Shown piece after piece: positions 25,771 to 51,961 of a DNA stretch of 51,961 nt. The stretch is from an uncultured Chromatiaceae bacterium (lineage in GTDB: Bacteria; Pseudomonadota; Gammaproteobacteria; Tenderiales; Tenderiaceae): contig CAMYNQ010000005.1 of the NCBI GenBank assembly GCA_947259785.1, positions 1 to 51,961 of the forward strand. The letters are read 5' to 3'. How positions within the stretch are numbered: the first letter of the stretch is position 1; every line of letters begins with the position of its first letter. A model generated the notes under the pieces. The model was not told where the DNA came from. It ran no database searches and saw nothing but the letters and a program-made list of their open reading frames with translations. The position numbers and the translations under genes are program-made.

Positions 25771-26556
25771 ATGACCAGCATCAGACCCGCCGCCGTTGCC
25801 GGAATGTTTTATCCTGCTGATGAGACAAGTCTGAGAAGTATGGTGCAGCAGTTTCTTGCTCAGGCCATCTCAAACGGGCCACCGCCAAAAGCCATTATTG
25901 TGCCGCATGCGGGTTATATCTACTCTGGCCCCATCGCCGCTAACGCCTATCATTTACTTGAAAACAGCAGTGAAAGCTTCAGTCGTGTTGTCCTGTTGGG
26001 GCCTTCACACCGGGTTCCCCTGCTTGGTCTGGCCGCCACCAGTGCCACCAGCTTTGCCACACCACTTGGCCTGGTAGAGATTGATCAGGACATGATCAAA
26101 AAAATATCCAAACTAAAGCAGGTCAAGATAATGGACGAGGCGCATTCCATGGAACACAGCCTTGAAGTCCAACTGCCATTCTTGCAAACCATTCTGACAG
26201 ACTTCAAACTAATCCCCTTGGTTGTCGGTAACGCCTCAGCACAGGAGGTATGCGAAGTCCTGGAACTTGCCTGCCAGGATCAACAAACATTAATCGTTAT
26301 TAGTTCAGACCTGAGTCATTATCATGACTATGCAACAGCAAACAAGCTGGACTCGCAAACCTCACAAGCCATCGCAAGTCTTGATAGCGATAAGATTGGC
26401 TATGAAGATGCCTGTGGCCGCACACCAGTCAATGGCCTGCTGATGTTTGCCAGCGCACATGGCCTGAAGGCGGAAATCATCGACCAAAGAAATTCCGGTG
26501 ACACCGCTGGCGACAAAAAGCAGGTAGTCGGTTATGGCGCCTATGCCTTTAGATAA
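25771..26556 (+). CDS. amrB: AmmeMemoRadiSam system protein B (MEMO1 family)
   Basis: IRPAAVAGMFYPADE, IVPHAGYIYSGPIAANAYHLL, EHSLEVQLPFLQ, SSDLSHYHDYA. Start at ATG 25771. Confidence 0.93.
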   Translation: MTSIRPAAVAGMFYPADETSLRSMVQQFLAQAISNGPPPKAIIVPHAGYIYSGPIAANAYHLLENSSESFSRVVLLGPSHRVPLLGLAATSATSFATPLGLVEIDQDMIKKISKLKQVKIMDEAHSMEHSLEVQLPFLQTILTDFKLIPLVVGNASAQEVCEVLELACQDQQTLIVISSDLSHYHDYATANKLDSQTSQAIASLDSDKIGYEDACGRTPVNGLLMFASAHGLKAEIIDQRNSGDTAGDKKQVVGYGAYAFR

Positions 26557-27208
26557 GCCTTTAGATAAGCCTTTAGATAAGCCTTTAGATAAGCCTTTAG
26601 ATAAGCCTTTAGATAAGCCTTTAGATAAACCTTCAGATAAGCCTGCACAGACATTGATCACTGAAGCACAGCAGCAAACACTGCTGTCAGTCGCCAGGCA
26701 AAGCATTCTTTATGGTCTGCAACACCACCAACTAATATCGTTGCAGCTGGAACACTACCCACCACAACTACTACAAAAGCGCGCCACATTTGTCACCTTG
26801 AATATTGCAGACCAGCTACGTGGCTGTATTGGCACACTTGAACCACATCGACCGTTGGTGCTTGATGTTACCCATAACGCCTATGCTGCCGCCTTTAGCG
26901 ACCCACGCTTTTTACCGCTAAGCCAGCCTGAATATGAGCCGCTTGAAATACATATCTCGATTTTAAACCCAGCTGAAAAAATGACGTTTACGTCTGAACA
27001 AGACCTAATCGAGCAACTTCGCCCCGGTGTCGATGGTTTAATCATGAAGGAGGGGCGACAGCAGGGCACTTTTCTGCCGATTGTCTGGCAACAACTACCT
27101 GACCCAAAACAATTCATCCAACATCTAAAACATAAAGCAGGCCTGCCCACTGACTACTGGTCAGATGAGTTGCGAATCTGGCGTTACACCACCAGCTCAT
27201 TCCCATAA
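26534..27208 (+). CDS. amrA: AmmeMemoRadiSam system protein A (AMMECR1 domain) with (PLDK)n N-terminus
   Basis: ATFVTLNIADQLRGCIGTLEPHRPLVLDVTHNAYAAAFSDPRF, LEIHISIL, KEGRQQGTFLPIVWQQLPDPKQFIQHLKHKAGLP. Overlaps amrB; start codon uncertain (an in-frame TTG also lies just after the repeat). Confidence 0.88.
   Translation: MAPMPLDKPLDKPLDKPLDKPLDKPLDKPLDKPSDKPAQTLITEAQQQTLLSVARQSILYGLQHHQLISLQLEHYPPQLLQKRATFVTLNIADQLRGCIGTLEPHRPLVLDVTHNAYAAAFSDPRFLPLSQPEYEPLEIHISILNPAEKMTFTSEQDLIEQLRPGVDGLIMKEGRQQGTFLPIVWQQLPDPKQFIQHLKHKAGLPTDYWSDELRIWRYTTSSFP
26546..26641 (+). repeat. Eight tandem 12-bp units CCTTTAGATAAG encoding PLDK
   Basis: Six identical units, a 7th ending AAA, an 8th CCTTCAGATAAG (PSDK); read directly from sequence. 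Confidence 0.98.
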
Positions 27209-31048: not shown

Positions 31049-31753
31049 CTATGGTATTTCGTCCAAAGATACGCCTTCCTTTAACATTTCGATAAAACTA
31101 TCCACATCGAGCAGCGCAGTCATTTGCTCAATCATGGTTCCGGCCAGCCAGGGACGACTGCTGCGATCTTCTCGCCAACGAATTTTATCGCCGCTCAGTT
31201 TCACGACTTGACCTAGCTCATCACAAGCAAAGCCAAATTTGCCACCATCCACCAGCAGCAAATGCTTAAACTGTCGCTCTGCCGCAATTGCTTGCCGCGA
31301 TTTATGATTCTCAGGAATAACAAACTTTGCAATATCAATCACTTTCACCTGCTGACCGCGATTTGAGATCAAACCCAAAAACCAATCTGCATGGCCTGGA
31401 ATCGGTGTTATCTCAGCATTCCATTTCATAATTCCATTCAATCGAGCCAATGGCACAGACAGAGTCAAAAAACCTGCCACCTTGAAAAGCAGGTATTCAA
31501 CAACCTCGTCAGCAGCAGGAACAGGCTGTTCATGTGGTGGATTGGCCTTTGCCAAAACCGTCGTTTCTGCGACAGCAGTTTCAAGCGATGCCTCTGCTTC
31601 ACTCTCTACCACTGTTGGTTCTGCAACAACTACAACCGCTTCAGGAGGGGCCTCGATTACTTCTGGCTCTAGTAGCAGGGCATCAATATAGACCTTCAAC
31701 GCCACCTCATGCTCAAACTCAGTCTGAGCCGGCTTGTTTTCTTGTCTGCTCAT
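31049..31753 (-). CDS. CheW-like domain protein with acidic/Pro N-terminus (ParP-like)
   Basis: N-terminal low-complexity region then LFKVAGFLTLSVPLARLNGIMKWNAEITPIPGHADWFLGLISNRGQQVKVIDIAKF; 4-bp overlap with ParA-like gene. Confidence 0.85.
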   Translation of the reverse strand: MSRQENKPAQTEFEHEVALKVYIDALLLEPEVIEAPPEAVVVVAEPTVVESEAEASLETAVAETTVLAKANPPHEQPVPAADEVVEYLLFKVAGFLTLSVPLARLNGIMKWNAEITPIPGHADWFLGLISNRGQQVKVIDIAKFVIPENHKSRQAIAAERQFKHLLLVDGGKFGFACDELGQVVKLSGDKIRWREDRSSRPWLAGTMIEQMTALLDVDSFIEMLKEGVSLDEIP

Positions 31754-32535
31754 ATCACTGCCGCCTGCGGTTGCTTGGCATCATGGCTAAGCAGAGTATC
31801 CAGCAAGTGCTCATAGGCTATTACACCACGCGACTGCGGCAATAGCATTGGCAGTGGCACCCCCATGCGACTCGCTTCACGGAACTGGGTGTCCACAGGT
31901 ATCACCGAGTTCCACAGGTCATCGGCATAGCGAGTTCGTAACAATCTAAGGGTCTCTGTTGATGCTCGAGTACGGCGATCAAACATGGTCGGTACAATCG
32001 TATAAGGCAGACGAATGCTTCTTGAGCGGGTAATCATGCTCAGGGTTTTCAACATTCGCTCCAAACCTTTCAAGGCCAGAAATTCGGTCTGCACCGGAAT
32101 CACCAGATGATCACAGGCAGCCATCGCATTCACCATCAACACGCCAAGCATCGGCGGGCAATCGATCAGGGCATAATCATATTTTTCCTCCATGGCCTTC
32201 AGTGCCTTATTAATGACCAACCCCATACCACTCTTGGCGCCGAGTTGACGATCTAAGGTCGCTAACCCGATGGTCGCAGGTAAAATATGCAAGCCTTCAA
32301 AACGTGTCGGTCGTACCAGGCTATACGGATTGACAGCCTGATTCTGAAACAGGGTAAAAATACTGCTTTCCAGGTCATCTGGGCTATAGCGAAAATAGGA
32401 TGTCAAAGACCCCTGTGGATCAATGTCCAGTATCAGGACACGATAACCACGTTGGGCCAGGACACCGCCTAAACTGACAGCCGTTGTGGTCTTTCCTACC
32501 CCTCCTTTCTGATTGGCAACCGCCCAAATCTTCAT
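31750..32535 (-). CDS. ParA-family ATPase (ParC-like)
   Basis: WAVANQKGGVGKTTTAVSLGGVLAQRGYRVLILDIDPQGSLT. Confidence 0.93.
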   Translation of the reverse strand: MKIWAVANQKGGVGKTTTAVSLGGVLAQRGYRVLILDIDPQGSLTSYFRYSPDDLESSIFTLFQNQAVNPYSLVRPTRFEGLHILPATIGLATLDRQLGAKSGMGLVINKALKAMEEKYDYALIDCPPMLGVLMVNAMAACDHLVIPVQTEFLALKGLERMLKTLSMITRSRSIRLPYTIVPTMFDRRTRASTETLRLLRTRYADDLWNSVIPVDTQFREASRMGVPLPMLLPQSRGVIAYEHLLDTLLSHDAKQPQAAVI

Positions 32536-34433: not shown

Positions 34434-35498
34434 TCAAACACTTTCCATCAAAGCTGAGGCGATGGCATCCAAAGCTAAGATATTATCTGCCAGCCCCGCC
34501 TCGGCAATCGCCGCGGGCATACCATAAATCACGCTGGTTTCCTTATCCTGAGCCCAAACAGTGGAACCATGACTTTTCAACATTTTTGCACCTTCACGTC
34601 CGTCAGCCCCCATCCCTGTCATGACCACTGCAAGCACATCAGCAGCAAACAGTTTTGAAGCCGAGCCGAAGGTAATATCGACACTGGGTTTATAGGTTTG
34701 GCCGGGCTGGCTTTCAACAATCCTGATCACCTGCGCCCCACGCTGATCCTCTACCAGCATCTGTTTGCCACCGGGTGCCAGGTATGCCCAACCCTTTTGC
34801 AAATGGTCGCCATCACACGCCTCTTTTATTGAAATACCGCAAAGTTTGTTAAGCCGTTCAGCAAACGCTGGCGTAAAACTGGCAGGCATATGCTGAACCA
34901 ATAAAATGGGTAATGGGAATGTGGCAGGCAAACTGGTTAACACTTTTTGCAGAGCCACCGGACCGCCTGTTGAGGTGCCTAAAACAACTAAACGATACCC
35001 CCCCCGACGCGTCCTTGTCGGCATCGCCGGTTTAGCCAACATAGGTTCTGTTGTTTGTAGCTTAGGTCGAGCACCTACCGCGGCATCAGCTTTTTTCAGC
35101 CCCTTAGCACTAATCAATCGCACCCTGGCACAAAGCTGCCGTTTGGCAGCTTCACGATCCTGGGAAATATCCTCCAGCCGCTTTGGCAAAAAATCGACTG
35201 CGCCAGCCTCAAGCGCATTCAGAGTCGCCTGTGCACCATCCGTAGTCAGAGATGAAAACATCAGAATAGGCAGTGGGTTGGTCTGCATGATTTTTCTGAC
35301 CGCTGTAATGCCATCCATAATTGGCATTTCAATATCCATGGTCACCACATCTGGCTTAAGTTTCTTTACAAGATCAATTGCTTCGTGACCATTGACAGCT
35401 GCACCAATAACTTCAATATGTTTATCACTATTGAAAATCTCGGTTAGTCGTCGCCGAAAAAACGATGAGTCATCAACGACAAGAACCCGAACCGCCAT
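34434..35498 (-). CDS. cheB: Chemotaxis response regulator methylesterase CheB
   Basis: VLVVDDSSFFRRRL...DVVTMDIEMPIMDGITAVRKIM; GTSTGGPVALQKVL; VVMTGMGADGREGAK. Confidence 0.97.
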   Translation of the reverse strand: MAVRVLVVDDSSFFRRRLTEIFNSDKHIEVIGAAVNGHEAIDLVKKLKPDVVTMDIEMPIMDGITAVRKIMQTNPLPILMFSSLTTDGAQATLNALEAGAVDFLPKRLEDISQDREAAKRQLCARVRLISAKGLKKADAAVGARPKLQTTEPMLAKPAMPTRTRRGGYRLVVLGTSTGGPVALQKVLTSLPATFPLPILLVQHMPASFTPAFAERLNKLCGISIKEACDGDHLQKGWAYLAPGGKQMLVEDQRGAQVIRIVESQPGQTYKPSVDITFGSASKLFAADVLAVVMTGMGADGREGAKMLKSHGSTVWAQDKETSVIYGMPAAIAEAGLADNILALDAIASALMESV

Positions 35499-35507
35499 GT
35501 TCTTCTC

Positions 35508-37658
35508 CTAAATACGACTGGCATAGGTTTCCATCAACCCTGGCATATCAAGTATCAGGGCGATGCCACCATTACCTGTGATAGTTGCACCTGAGACACC
35601 TTTGGTTCCGTGTAACATGGCGCCCAACGGTTTGATCACGACCTCTTCCTGACCAACCAGCTGATCAACGACACAGCCAATGTGCTGGCCACCAATGGTG
35701 GCAACAACGACAAAACCCTCACCTTCAGTATCGCCATCAGCTACCATGGCAGGGCTATTCACTAACCAGTTACTTAGCCGCACCAGTGGCACCGCCTTTT
35801 CACGGATAATGACAACCTCCTTGCCATCCACGGTGCTAAGTTTGGCTGACTCCATATCAAATATTTCATTGACATTAGCAAGCGGTAAGGCAAATACCTG
35901 CCCGCCAAGCTCCACCATCAATGTCGGCATAATCGCTAGTGTCAACGGCAGTTTAATGGTCAGGCGACTACCCTTACCTAGAGTAGAATCAACCTCTACC
36001 GCGCCATTCAATTGCGAAATTCTGGTCTTGACCACATCCATGCCAACACCGCGCCCAGAGACATCCGAAATTTCCGTCTTGGTTGAAAAGCCCGGCGCAA
36101 AAATCAAGTTGTAACATGCCTTGTCATCCAGTCGAGCAGCAGCATCCTCATCCATCATGCCTTTTGTTACCGCGCTCGCACGCAATGTATCGGCATCCAT
36201 GCCTTTGCCGTCATCATCGATCGTCAGCAGGATATGGTCTCCCTCCTGCGTTGCCGATAAAACAACCGTACCGGCCCTTGGCTTACCTGCCCGTTCGCGT
36301 TCATCAGGCATTTCAACACCATGGTCCACCGCATTACGAACCAGATGCACCAGCGGGTCAGCCAGGGCCTCTACTAAGTTTTTATCAAGATCGGTTTCTT
36401 CGCCAATCAATTCCAGATTAACTTCTTTCTTGAGACTGCGGGCAAGGTCGCGAACAACCCGAGGAAAACGGCCAAACACCTTTTTAATCGGTTGCATCCG
36501 TGTTTTCATCACCGAGCTCTGTAGATCCGCTGTGACTAGATCGAGATTCGCAATAGCTTTGGCAACCTCTTCATCGGCCGTCATGGTCTCTTTCAACGTA
36601 GCCATACGGTTGCGCACCAGCACCAGCTCACCGACCAGGTTCATGATGTCATCGAGTCGTTTGGTATCTACCCTGACTGTCGTTTCCGCTGCAGGGGCTT
36701 CTTTGCCTGCCTTGGCCGCAGGTTTTGATTTTGGTTCTGACTTGGCTTCCGGTTTCGGCACAGGAGCCGGTTCGGGCTTAGCGACCGGTTGCGGCGCTGG
36801 CGCTGCTTGCGCAGGCTCAACTTTTACAGGCTCAGGTTCCTGCACCGTCGATGCGGCGGCCTTTTTCTTGGCATCAAGATCATCCAACAGGGCCTCAAAT
36901 TCATCTTCACTAATCTCATCCGATGAATGAGTGCTCACAGCCTCTGGCTCACTACTTTCTGGCTCAGCAACAGAAGGCTCTTCAACAAGGGGGGCTTCTT
37001 GCTTTGAAGCTGAATCATGCAACTGATCTAACAATGCTTCAAACTCATCTTCAGTAATCTCATCAGAATCAGCTTCGACTTCGACTTCGGCTGGGACCTG
37101 GCTGTTGTCTGCCTGGCCATGCAAATCATCCAACAAGGCTTCAAATTCATCATCGGTAATTTCATCTGCCGATGTCGTAGCCACAACAGGTTCAGCCACC
37201 ATTTCAGGCTCTGGCTCTGGCGCTACCTCAGCGGCAGGCTCAGCAGCAACGGCGGGTTCAGCAACGTCTTCACCTTTCAATATTACCTCAAGCGCTTGCA
37301 ACAAAGCAGGCTCAGCAGCATCAGGCTCTTCACCGGAACGAATACAGTCCATCATTTCGTTAACAACATCGGTAACCTGCAGAATCACATCCATTAACTG
37401 CGGTGTTACCTGTCGCTCACCCTGGCGCAACAGATTAAAAACATCCTCTGCACGGTGACAGACTTCAACCAGGGTATTCAGGCCTAAAAAACCACCACCA
37501 CCTTTAACCGTGTGAAAGCCACGAAATACAGCATTCAAGAGATCCAGATCGTCCGGCGCACGCTCTAGCTCGACTAGCTGTTCGCCGAGCAACTCAAGTA
37601 TTTCACCAGCCTCAACCAGGAAGTCCTGCAGAATTTCATCATTCAGATCAATTGCCAT
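35508..37658 (-). CDS. cheA: Chemotaxis histidine kinase CheA
   Basis: Hpt FRGFHTVKGGGGFLG; NLVGELVLVRNRM; HLVRNAVDHGVEMPDERERAGKP; CheW-like C-terminus. Linker carries three DEI(T/S)(D/E)DEFEALLD motifs. Confidence 0.98.
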   Translation of the reverse strand: MAIDLNDEILQDFLVEAGEILELLGEQLVELERAPDDLDLLNAVFRGFHTVKGGGGFLGLNTLVEVCHRAEDVFNLLRQGERQVTPQLMDVILQVTDVVNEMMDCIRSGEEPDAAEPALLQALEVILKGEDVAEPAVAAEPAAEVAPEPEPEMVAEPVVATTSADEITDDEFEALLDDLHGQADNSQVPAEVEVEADSDEITEDEFEALLDQLHDSASKQEAPLVEEPSVAEPESSEPEAVSTHSSDEISEDEFEALLDDLDAKKKAAASTVQEPEPVKVEPAQAAPAPQPVAKPEPAPVPKPEAKSEPKSKPAAKAGKEAPAAETTVRVDTKRLDDIMNLVGELVLVRNRMATLKETMTADEEVAKAIANLDLVTADLQSSVMKTRMQPIKKVFGRFPRVVRDLARSLKKEVNLELIGEETDLDKNLVEALADPLVHLVRNAVDHGVEMPDERERAGKPRAGTVVLSATQEGDHILLTIDDDGKGMDADTLRASAVTKGMMDEDAAARLDDKACYNLIFAPGFSTKTEISDVSGRGVGMDVVKTRISQLNGAVEVDSTLGKGSRLTIKLPLTLAIMPTLMVELGGQVFALPLANVNEIFDMESAKLSTVDGKEVVIIREKAVPLVRLSNWLVNSPAMVADGDTEGEGFVVVATIGGQHIGCVVDQLVGQEEVVIKPLGAMLHGTKGVSGATITGNGGIALILDMPGLMETYASRI

Positions 37659-37680: not shown

Positions 37681-38433
37681 TCAAAAGCCCAGACTTGATA
37701 AAAGATCATCAACATCATCCTGATTGGCTACGGTGTCACCTTTATCAACACCGGGCACTGCAGGTCCCGCCGCTTCGATATCTGGCCCAACCTTATTTTT
37801 ATCTTTCTGGGTTGCTGGGGCATTCATTTTCGACCCGGTCATGCGAATCAATCCCACTAGGCCTTCTTCAACATCCTGCACCAATGTAATCACTTTACCA
37901 ATAATCTGCCCAGTCAAATCCTGAAACCCTTGGGCCATCATGATGTCTGAAAGACTCGAACTAATTTCAGGATTTTTTTGATCCAGCCACTGAAAAAACT
38001 CATCCAGTTCCGCACTCATAATGCGAAACTCATCCACATCCATGTCACGCTTTCTAAAGCGACTCCAGTTTTCGTGTAGTTTCTCACTCTTGTGCCTGAG
38101 GGCATCAAAGAGAGTCATTGAAACTTCAACAGAAGAAAGTGTTTTTTCAGCCGCCTGTTCTGTCATGGTTATCACATGGCTAAGACGCTCTTTGGCATCA
38201 GAAATATCAGCTTCTGCCAAGTTGCTAATTTTAGTATCAAACTGAAATCCCACCATGGTGTCATGCAGATCACGGGTAAGCTTACCCAACTCCTGAAACA
38301 GGTGACCCTCACGCAATGCCGACAGGTCTTCCATCACCTTTTCGGCGTCTTCTTGGTTGCCTTGTTCTATGCACTCAACCAGTTTCCTTGCATACTCAAG
38401 GCCTGCATCACTGCAAATCAAATTTTCACTCAT
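37681..38433 (-). CDS. cheZ: Chemotaxis phosphatase CheZ
   Basis: MMAQGFQDLTGQIIGKVITLVQDVEEGLV; C-terminal VDDLLSSLGF. Confidence 0.96.
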   Translation of the reverse strand: MSENLICSDAGLEYARKLVECIEQGNQEDAEKVMEDLSALREGHLFQELGKLTRDLHDTMVGFQFDTKISNLAEADISDAKERLSHVITMTEQAAEKTLSSVEVSMTLFDALRHKSEKLHENWSRFRKRDMDVDEFRIMSAELDEFFQWLDQKNPEISSSLSDIMMAQGFQDLTGQIIGKVITLVQDVEEGLVGLIRMTGSKMNAPATQKDKNKVGPDIEAAGPAVPGVDKGDTVANQDDVDDLLSSLGF

Positions 38434-38472: not shown

Positions 38473-38862
38473 TTAACCGGCTTCGATGCGTTCAAAAATC
38501 TTGTCGATTTTTTCTTTCAACGTGGCTGCAGTAAAGGGCTTGACCACATAACCGTTAACACCGGCCTGCGCAGCTTCGACAATCTGTTCTTTCTTTGCCT
38601 CTGCAGTAACCATCAGGACAGGGAGACTTGCTAGTTTAGGATCGGCACGAACGGCCTTAAGGAGGTCTATCCCCTGCATACCTGGCATATTCCAGTCAGT
38701 CACAAGGAAATCAAAATTACCTGACTGAAGCTTGGGTAACGCAGTGTTACCATCATCCGCTTCATCAGTGTTGCTAAAACCCAGATCTCTTAATAGGTTT
38801 TTTATGATCCTGCGCATTGTAGAAAAATCGTCCACAACCAGGATTTTCATATTCTTGTCCAA
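38473..38862 (-). CDS. cheY: Chemotaxis response regulator CheY
   Basis: [24 protein letters not shown]...[21 protein letters not shown]. Confidence 0.97.
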
Positions 38863-47933: not shown

Positions 47934-48937
47934 TTGCTAACTCCTAACTGGGAAACGACAGGAACATTTGATTTAACCGGCTCGATAATACGAATAGCAT
48001 TGTTATTCTGATGCACCCCAAATTTTCCACGATAAATTGGCACATTATCGTCCGTTGTTAAGGTCACGTTCTCTGGAAATTCAAAAGGAATAATATCCCC
48101 AACCTTCATGTCTACAATATCTTTTAGACTGACATCTACATTCGCTAGAACACTCTTTACATCTATGCTCGCATCCTTAATATCTTCTTCAAGCGCGGTG
48201 ATCCAACGCTCATCAACTTCTGAGCGGTCACTTACTGTGCCCGCATCGAGCAGCTCACGAATTGGCTCAAGCATTGAATACGGAATCGTGACATGGATGT
48301 CGCCGCCACCGCCATCAAGCTCGACATGAAAAGTGCTAATCACCACCACCTCGGTTGGACTAACAATATTGGCAAAATGTGGGTTCACCTCTGAATTTTG
48401 GAATTCAAATTCAATATCAAGAACCGGTGACCAGGCTTCAACCATGTCGGCAAAGCACTTTTCCATCATAATCTCGATAATTCTGTATTCAGTGCTGGTA
48501 AATTCACGTCCCTCAATTTTGTTATAAAACTTGCCACTACCACCAAAAAAATTATCAACGACAATAAAAACAAGTTTGGGATCGAAGACAAATAGTCCGG
48601 TACCACGCAAAGGTTTTATATTAACCAGATTCAAACTAGTAGGGACAAACAAGGTGTGTACATATTCTGCAAACTTAAGCATTTGCACGCCACCAACGGC
48701 AATTTCCGGAGACCTTCGCAACATATTGAACAGGCTGGTTCTGAAATAACGAGCAAAACGCTCATTAATCATTTCCAGCGTAGGCATACGCCCACGCACA
48801 ATCCTGTCCTGGCTAGTGAAGTCATACGACTTCGCCTCACCGTCAAAAATATCGTCATCCGTAGCAACATCGCCATCATCTACGCCATGCAATAGCGCAT
48901 CGATTTCGTCCTGGGATAATAAATCGTTTACTGACAT
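47930..48937 (-). CDS. fliM: Flagellar switch protein FliM
   Basis: N-terminal LLSQDEIDALLHGVDDGD; RMPTLEMINERFARYFRTSLFNMLRR. Confidence 0.98.
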   Translation of the reverse strand: MSVNDLLSQDEIDALLHGVDDGDVATDDDIFDGEAKSYDFTSQDRIVRGRMPTLEMINERFARYFRTSLFNMLRRSPEIAVGGVQMLKFAEYVHTLFVPTSLNLVNIKPLRGTGLFVFDPKLVFIVVDNFFGGSGKFYNKIEGREFTSTEYRIIEIMMEKCFADMVEAWSPVLDIEFEFQNSEVNPHFANIVSPTEVVVISTFHVELDGGGGDIHVTIPYSMLEPIRELLDAGTVSDRSEVDERWITALEEDIKDASIDVKSVLANVDVSLKDIVDMKVGDIIPFEFPENVTLTTDDNVPIYRGKFGVHQNNNAIRIIEPVKSNVPVVSQLGVSK

Positions 48938-51052: not shown

Positions 51053-51961
51053 TTAGTCCTGAACCAGCTCTACAACTTTTTTGCAGACTTTATTAAGCGG
51101 CAAAATGAAATCAACACCACCACGGCTTACCGCCTCACCCGGCATACCCCAAACCACGCTGGTCTTTTCATCCTGAGCAATGGTCTTGGCGCCAGCCTCA
51201 TGCATTTCATACAAACCAGTAGCGCCATCATCGCCCATACCGGTCAAAATCACACCAACAGCATTAGGGCCCGCATTTTGTGCAACCGACCTGAATAAAA
51301 CATCAACAGCAGGTTTATGCCTGTTCACTGCTGGGCCATCATTCAATTTACAGCGATACTTGGCGCCATCACGAATCACCATCAAATGGGCATTACCCGG
51401 GGCTATATAGGCATGACCGGGCAGGATCTGCTCATTGTCTTCAGCATGCCGAACATTAATTGCACAAAGGCCATCCATTCGCTTTGCAAAAGGCTCACTA
51501 AATGCCTCTGGGATATGTTGAGCAATCACAATGCCTGGTGAATCAGGGGGCATGGTAATCAGAACGTCCTTAATGGCCTCTGTGCCTCCCGTCGATGCTC
51601 CAATTGCAATTAGCCTATCAGTGGTTCGATTTCGATAGTGTTTGGTAACAGTTTTCTCCAACACCACATCAGCGGATTTTTTTTGTGTACCACTCAGACT
51701 TGAAGCACGCATCAATAAAGCCGTTTTACTCACTGCTGCAGCAGTTTTTATTTTTTCAATCAGTTCGCCCTGATAGCCAATAAGGCCATCGGCAAGATCA
51801 ATTTTTGGTTTGGTAACAAAATCAATGGCACCGGCTTCCAGTGCTCTAAGAGTGACATCTGCCCCCTGTTCAGTTAGAGACGAGACCATAACGACGGGCA
51901 ACGGGTGAAGACGCATTAGGTTTTTCAGGAAGGTAAGGCCATCCATCCGCGGCATTTCAAC
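51053..51961 (-). CDS. Second CheB-type methylesterase, 5' end truncated by window edge
   Basis: ...[60 protein letters not shown]; reading frame runs off the window end. Confidence 0.94.

Follow-up and report, generated by a model that had tools for sequence, protein, structure and literature searches.

The window, by which we mean the whole 51,961-nucleotide stretch of DNA analysed here, encodes a CheA chemotaxis histidine kinase of the F6 type, a class name taken from earlier work (PMC7184735). Both the order of its domains (P1, P3, P4, P5) and its flhA-flhF-fleN-fliA-cheYZAB-mot-parC-parP-cheW neighbourhood place the kinase in this class. The genes and domains on which the analysis bears are as follows.

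35508..37658, minus strand: cheA, F6-type chemotaxis histidine kinase, 716 aa (open reading frame and Pfam)
37359..37637, minus strand: CheA Hpt (P1) domain, aa 8-100 (Pfam PF01627, E 7e-17)
36705..37328, minus strand: CheA Pro/Ala/Glu-rich linker, aa 111-318 (AlphaFold2 pLDDT)
36501..36683, minus strand: CheA dimerisation (P3) domain, H-kinase_dim, aa 326-386 (Pfam PF02895)
35940..36359, minus strand: CheA HATPase_c (P4) domain, aa 434-573 (Pfam PF02518)
35529..35921, minus strand: CheA CheW-like (P5) domain, aa 580-710 (Pfam PF01584)
38473..38862, minus strand: cheY, the proposed partner (Pfam PF00072)
37681..38433, minus strand: cheZ (Pfam PF04344)
37684..37728, minus strand: CheZ C-terminal CheY-binding peptide, ANQDDVDDLLSSLGF region, aa 236-250 (top FliM-profile score in CheZ, 12.9)
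48890..48919, minus strand: FliM N-terminal CheY-binding segment LSQDEIDALL, FliM aa 7-16 (sequence; source for the profile)
34434..35498, minus strand: cheB, an alternative partner (Pfam PF01339 and PF00072)
31750..32535, minus strand: parC, ParA-like ATPase (Pfam AAA_31; orthologues 41-59% identical)
31049..31753, minus strand: parP, N-terminal tail and CheW-like AIF domain, partner in a rival reading (Pfam CheW; AIF profile 178.6 bits)

Two further reading frames were noted in the window: another CheB-like gene close to its end (51053-51955, minus strand), in addition to the cheB listed above, and a frame on the plus strand (26534-27208) that starts with several tandem DKPL repeats and overlaps the preceding frame by about 20 bases.

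The initial annotation had found no recognisable P2 in this kinase, and our searches agree. Pfam reports neither a P2 nor a CheY-binding domain in the window CheA, and neither profile (P2 of the T. maritima type, CheY-binding of the E. coli type) matches any of 60 F6 CheA proteins, that of the window included. A sequence search of the PDB with the window CheA matched the P1 and P3-P5 chains of E. coli CheA and no isolated P2 chain, of the kind that an E. coli CheA query does find. The linker instead carries three 16-residue repeats, which had been described previously and proved correct to the base.

37119..37166, minus strand: repeat 1, DEITDDEFEALLDDLH, aa 165-180 (exact match; predicted helix 169-179; FliM-profile score 12.1)
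37017..37064, minus strand: repeat 2, DEITEDEFEALLDQLH, aa 199-214 (exact match; predicted helix 203-215; FliM-profile score 13.0)
36873..36920, minus strand: repeat 3, DEISEDEFEALLDDLD, aa 247-262 (exact match; predicted helix 251-269; FliM-profile score 15.9)

The DNA of the three copies is 77-83% identical pairwise, and each pair differs synonymously at four to six conserved codons, compared with two to three amino-acid changes. Since their synonymous sites have diverged, the repeats do not stem from a recent DNA duplication; this divergence, together with the conservation of the motif across families, also led us to reject an assembly artefact. An AlphaFold2 model, run on an alignment of 60 CheA sequences, predicts the linker to be mostly disordered, with a pLDDT of about 37-62 per 10-residue block between aa 131 and 320 outside the repeats. 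The ordered exceptions are a helix adjoining the Hpt domain and the three repeats, exactly at which the model places the helices listed above, with block pLDDT values of 71-83. As modelled, each repeat has the character of a disordered segment that forms a short helix.

To place these repeats in a wider context, CheA relatives were drawn from a class-wide sample of 185 genomes, the motif having played no part in their selection; a set of genome contigs that had been partly seeded with the motif was left out of the prevalence figures. Strict copies, numbering one to six, are present in 61 of the 64 F6-type linkers in this draw (up to eight copies when variants are counted), two of the remaining three linkers carry a single relaxed copy, and the third (L071, genome G025) holds degenerate versions only. 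Among homologues, the motif is strongly conserved and its copy number varies. Over all sets, 345 copies in 144 related linkers yield the consensus D[ED]I[TS][DE][DE]EF[ED]xLLDxLHGKG, in which the F is conserved in 100%, the E in 99%, the two L in 95 and 99% and the D in 95% of copies. The repeats are spaced by a median of 42 residues and, the helix next to the Hpt domain aside, are the sole conserved feature of a linker that is otherwise low in complexity. One such linker (L051, genome G033), 564 residues long, holds six strict repeats, two or more variants and, after these, a long tandem repeat of PAKPAA.

The motif is also specific to one gene. With a 22-residue profile, every match at E<1e-3 in 143 gammaproteobacterial genomes falls in the F6 CheA gene, where a few genes interrupted by a contig end or a frameshift were counted as one, the splitting being inferred from position; the idea that the motif is a general docking signal was dropped, as it was found in no other protein of these genomes. 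In a phylum-rank draw of 299 genomes, matches occurred in 40, every one of them a member of this class, and lay without exception in frames that are CheA-sized or split by contig ends; because the draw apparently consists mostly of that class, it is a weak test of whether the motif is restricted to Gammaproteobacteria. No solved structure containing the motif was found, and none of 60 CheA proteins joins the repeats to a receiver domain. A literature search by motif sequence, which covered few subscription papers, returned no match, and an earlier description may exist.

The N-terminal helix of FliM, alphaN, contacts CheY through the alpha4-beta5-alpha5 face of the latter (PMC11528121), and the same source cites Guhaniyogi et al. 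2006 for the binding of CheY by the C-terminal peptide of CheZ. The initial annotation had likened the CheA repeats to both of these segments. We built a profile of the CheY-binding decamer of FliM, to which related genomes contributed 13 of the 14 sequences and E. coli FliM the other, and scanned it over 9,246 open reading frames in CheA loci. CheZ, whose peptide is the other established binder of CheY, was absent from the building of the profile and served as a built-in positive control. Only two families stand out, CheZ and CheA: in 160 CheZ frames the median score is 15.4 and the top position falls within the last 25 residues in 160/160, and in CheA the median is 12.1 and the top position lies at the repeats in 164 of 169. 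Scores of at least 12 are reached by 64% of CheZ and 69% of CheA frames, whereas no other annotated family of five or more members exceeds 1.8% and unannotated frames stand at 0.3%; only four frames in the scan were assigned to FliM, one of them with a true N-terminus. In the window CheA, the repeats give the three highest scores, followed by a next best of 3.9, the C-terminus of the window CheZ gives the top score of that protein, and in E. coli CheZ the profile picks residues 200-209 at 17.1 (next -0.9). The observed median was reached by 0.3% of shuffled linkers and 0.1% of permuted motif decamers, and with the register shifted by one residue or more the median fell from +10.9 to roughly -10 or lower. 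The resemblance is thus well beyond chance, and at the level of sequence the repeats bear the signature of a CheY-binding helix.

When compared residue by residue, FliM LSQDEIDALL and the repeats share a register (hydrophobic, S/T N-cap, acidic pair, I/F, acidic, A, L, L) and are both free segments that form a helix, predicted in the case of the repeats. Unlike the FliM segment, the repeats sit in a kinase rather than the switch, occur in one to eight copies per chain, have a DxLHGKG extension, carry F where FliM has I/V and are more acidic, with a mean net charge of -6.8 per 17-mer; the last two differences speak against docking to CheY. The C-terminal peptide of CheZ, SQDEVDDLLSSLGF, is found by the same FliM profile, and differs from the repeats in its place at the chain end, its single copy and its LGF ending. 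A further caution comes from the Pfam family SHOCT, whose ITxEEF helix start the repeats share. SHOCT matches 45 of 60 F6 CheA proteins; in the window CheA its whole-protein score of 28.3 exceeds the cut-off of 27, with only model positions 11-27 of 28 covered and no single stretch passing by itself, so that the likeness is to half of the model. The similarity to FliM may in part reflect a common grammar of helix N-caps (the I-T-x-E-E-F half-match), which likewise counts against the CheY-docking reading; the FliM profile nevertheless shows no preference for the SHOCT-like ITEEEFEAKK, at 1.7 bits.

The repeats occupy the same place as P2, between P1 and P3, and would do the same job, although P2 is a folded domain. 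Among 17 CheA proteins of other, non-F6 types, 16 lack the motif (L230 alone carries it), one has a Pfam CheY-binding match, and about ten have a domain-like block with a W-x-I-x-F-x-P signature at the place of the linker, which neither profile comparison nor the PDB search confirmed as P2. The distribution supports, and does not prove, mutual exclusion of repeats and P2. Replacement of P2 by the repeats appears likely rather than proven, because the block in the other kinases is not confirmed as P2 and only one of the 17 has a Pfam CheY-binding match. In E. coli CheA (L273), a P2 helix at residues 203-212, IAEDDITAVL, ranks second within that protein with the FliM profile and likewise with the CheA-repeat profile; this resemblance is weak and possibly convergent, and we do not claim homology.

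Next, we considered which partner the repeats have in common across genomes. Docking to CheY or CheB had been proposed at the outset, and CheB is not needed: a 95% complete genome with no CheB match (G154) keeps two copies, so that CheB was rejected as an obligatory partner. The locus of that genome (L043) reads cheZ-cheA-cheW, and ParC, ParP and CheB were found nowhere in the genome. Repeats are likewise kept without CheZ (G022, G170 and G148) and without FliM (the single-contig genome G034). Two of the genomes without CheZ, G022 and G170, belong to one genus and have F6 clusters that lack cheZ, parC and parP (L067 and L068), with a single CheA repeat of the variant form QFSDAEFEALLDRLHGKG. 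G034 encodes a complete cheY-cheZ-cheA-cheB-cheB-parC-parP-cheW cluster (L154) with three CheA repeats and no FliM found, apparently an F6 system without a flagellar switch. Covariation of the repeats with FliM was uninformative, the FliM N-terminus being near-invariant whatever the type of CheA. Since the repeats survive the loss of ParC/ParP, CheB, CheZ and FliM, CheY is the sole shared partner among those tested; elimination alone does not single it out, because no genome with repeats lacks CheW, the receptors or CheA itself.

The CheY side offers a further comparison. Ortega et al. reported that CheY, on moving from F6 to the P2-bearing F7 CheA, underwent the changes R92K, Q94N, V103A and K117E, of which the first three face P2 in the E. 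coli complex and the last is a charge reversal (PMC7184735). These residues lie on the matching face of CheY. In an alignment with E. coli CheY, the window CheY carries the F6 hallmarks Q94, V103 and K117 (E. coli numbering), and among 138 CheY proteins encoded beside F6 CheA, the window included, Q94 is found in 136, V103 in 137 and K117 in 119, while position 92 is R or K in all. Such changes would agree with a P2 domain having taken over from an acidic peptide. The genome with degenerate repeats, G025, has A117 and K92 in its CheY, a single case on a long branch.

The region that holds the repeats has until now been linked with ParP. In Vibrio, a CheA segment named LID, between P2 and P3, binds the AIF domain of ParP and is reported solely in species with ParC and ParP (PMC5706961, PMC7534058). 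The repeats lie in the same part of CheA, between P1/P2 and P3, and in the same class of systems; the window itself encodes ParC and ParP, and parC/parP are found at 107 of 144 F6 loci, many of the others being truncated. Because the linker has no other conserved part except the helix next to Hpt, the repeats probably overlap with the LID, which weighs against CheY as their partner. However, unlike the LID as reported, the repeats persist without ParC and ParP in six genomes (four copies in G001, two in G010, one each, of relaxed form, in G022 and G170, two in G154 and three in G472), and genomes lacking both proteins retain them in all but one case. ParC was scored absent where the best match was at most 38% identical, the range of chromosomal ParA, compared with 41-59% for ParC, and ParP where it was at most 38 bits, compared with at least 72 for true ParP, a threshold that a very divergent ParP could escape. 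At four of the six loci, the flanking genes lie too close together for both parC and parP. On a CheA tree, the ParC/ParP-less state requires six changes, five of them forced by supported branches (the bootstrap not being settled). One locus (L170, genome G179) encodes a ParP-like protein, at 100 bits, without any ParC orthologue.

These observations bear on two alternatives. The one that survives best, although we regard it as rather doubtful, overlaps with our preferred reading: the repeats would bind CheY and ParP alike, with polar arrays recruiting ParP through what was ancestrally a peptide for docking CheY. It unites the ParP data (PMC5706961), the FliM/CheZ-like signature and the persistence without ParP, whereas copy number and sequence are visibly unchanged after ParP loss, when a shared site might have drifted. 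That the repeats are simply the LID, binding the ParP AIF domain and tethering chemoreceptor arrays to the cell pole, was the main rival, and is weakened to the point of being unlikely: it draws on the published binding and species distribution, on the parCP genes in the window and at most F6 loci and on the isolation of the repeats in the linker, and it leaves both the at least five independent changes to a ParC/ParP-less state, with close flanking genes at four loci, and the FliM/CheZ-like sequence unaccounted for.

A partner within the array itself, with the repeats docking CheW, the receptor tip or another part of CheA and so regulating kinase activity, is distinctly improbable, even though all three occur in every genome with repeats and the moderate AlphaFold2 confidence of the helices could reflect packing; the repeat sequence matches CheY-binding peptides, and we are aware of no such ligand for either CheW or P5. 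Highly improbable is a mere convergence of N-capped acidic helices, the repeats being spacers or solubility elements, as the SHOCT half-match and the acidic, Pro/Ala-rich linker might suggest, given that F, E, L, L and D are near-invariant across 345 copies, that the FliM profile scores the SHOCT-like decamer so low and that permuted decamers so rarely reach the observed score.

The repeats are probably short linear CheY-docking peptides that act in several copies and do the job of the missing P2. From the sequences and their distribution, we infer binding of the repeats to CheY, its register and affinity, the competition for CheY and the kinetic effect. Each repeat would be disordered alone and would fold into an amphipathic helix that is short and N-capped, [IL]-[TS]-x-[DE]-E-[FI]-[ED]-x-L-L. 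This helix would dock on the alpha4-beta5-alpha5 face of CheY as the FliM N-terminus does, in the same register, and its acidic residues would face the basic F6-type positions R/K92 and K117. With several copies tethered flexibly next to P1, the local concentration and occupancy of CheY would rise, and phosphotransfer would thereby be faster. Phospho-CheY would then leave CheA before reaching the motor (FliM) or the phosphatase (CheZ), as it must, because FliM and CheZ use the same CheY face.

A broader proposal, on which we find ourselves evenly divided, is that in F6 kinases as a class an array of FliM-like peptides, rather than a P2 domain, docks CheY, that kinase, phosphatase and motor compete for a single CheY face by means of variants of one peptide code, that copy number (one to eight) sets the avidity of the kinase, and that CheY positions 92, 94, 103 and 117 record how peptide docking gave way to domain docking when a P2-bearing CheA recruited CheY in the E. 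coli lineage.

The repeats are not a local peculiarity, since many gammaproteobacterial CheA proteins without a folded domain to hold CheY carry one to eight copies. Berry et al. reported P2 to be missing from more than half of CheA proteins and considered the domain dispensable (PMC10782961). If the F6 kinases of Pseudomonas, Shewanella, Alteromonas and Photobacterium use peptide repeats, docking in this class of CheA would have been solved differently rather than being dispensable. The changes in CheY previously mapped to the CheA P1-P2 interface (PMC7184735) could then be read in another way, and the CheA linker hitherto tied to ParP may have a second role. If true, kinase, phosphatase and motor would rely on one common peptide code in their competition for CheY.
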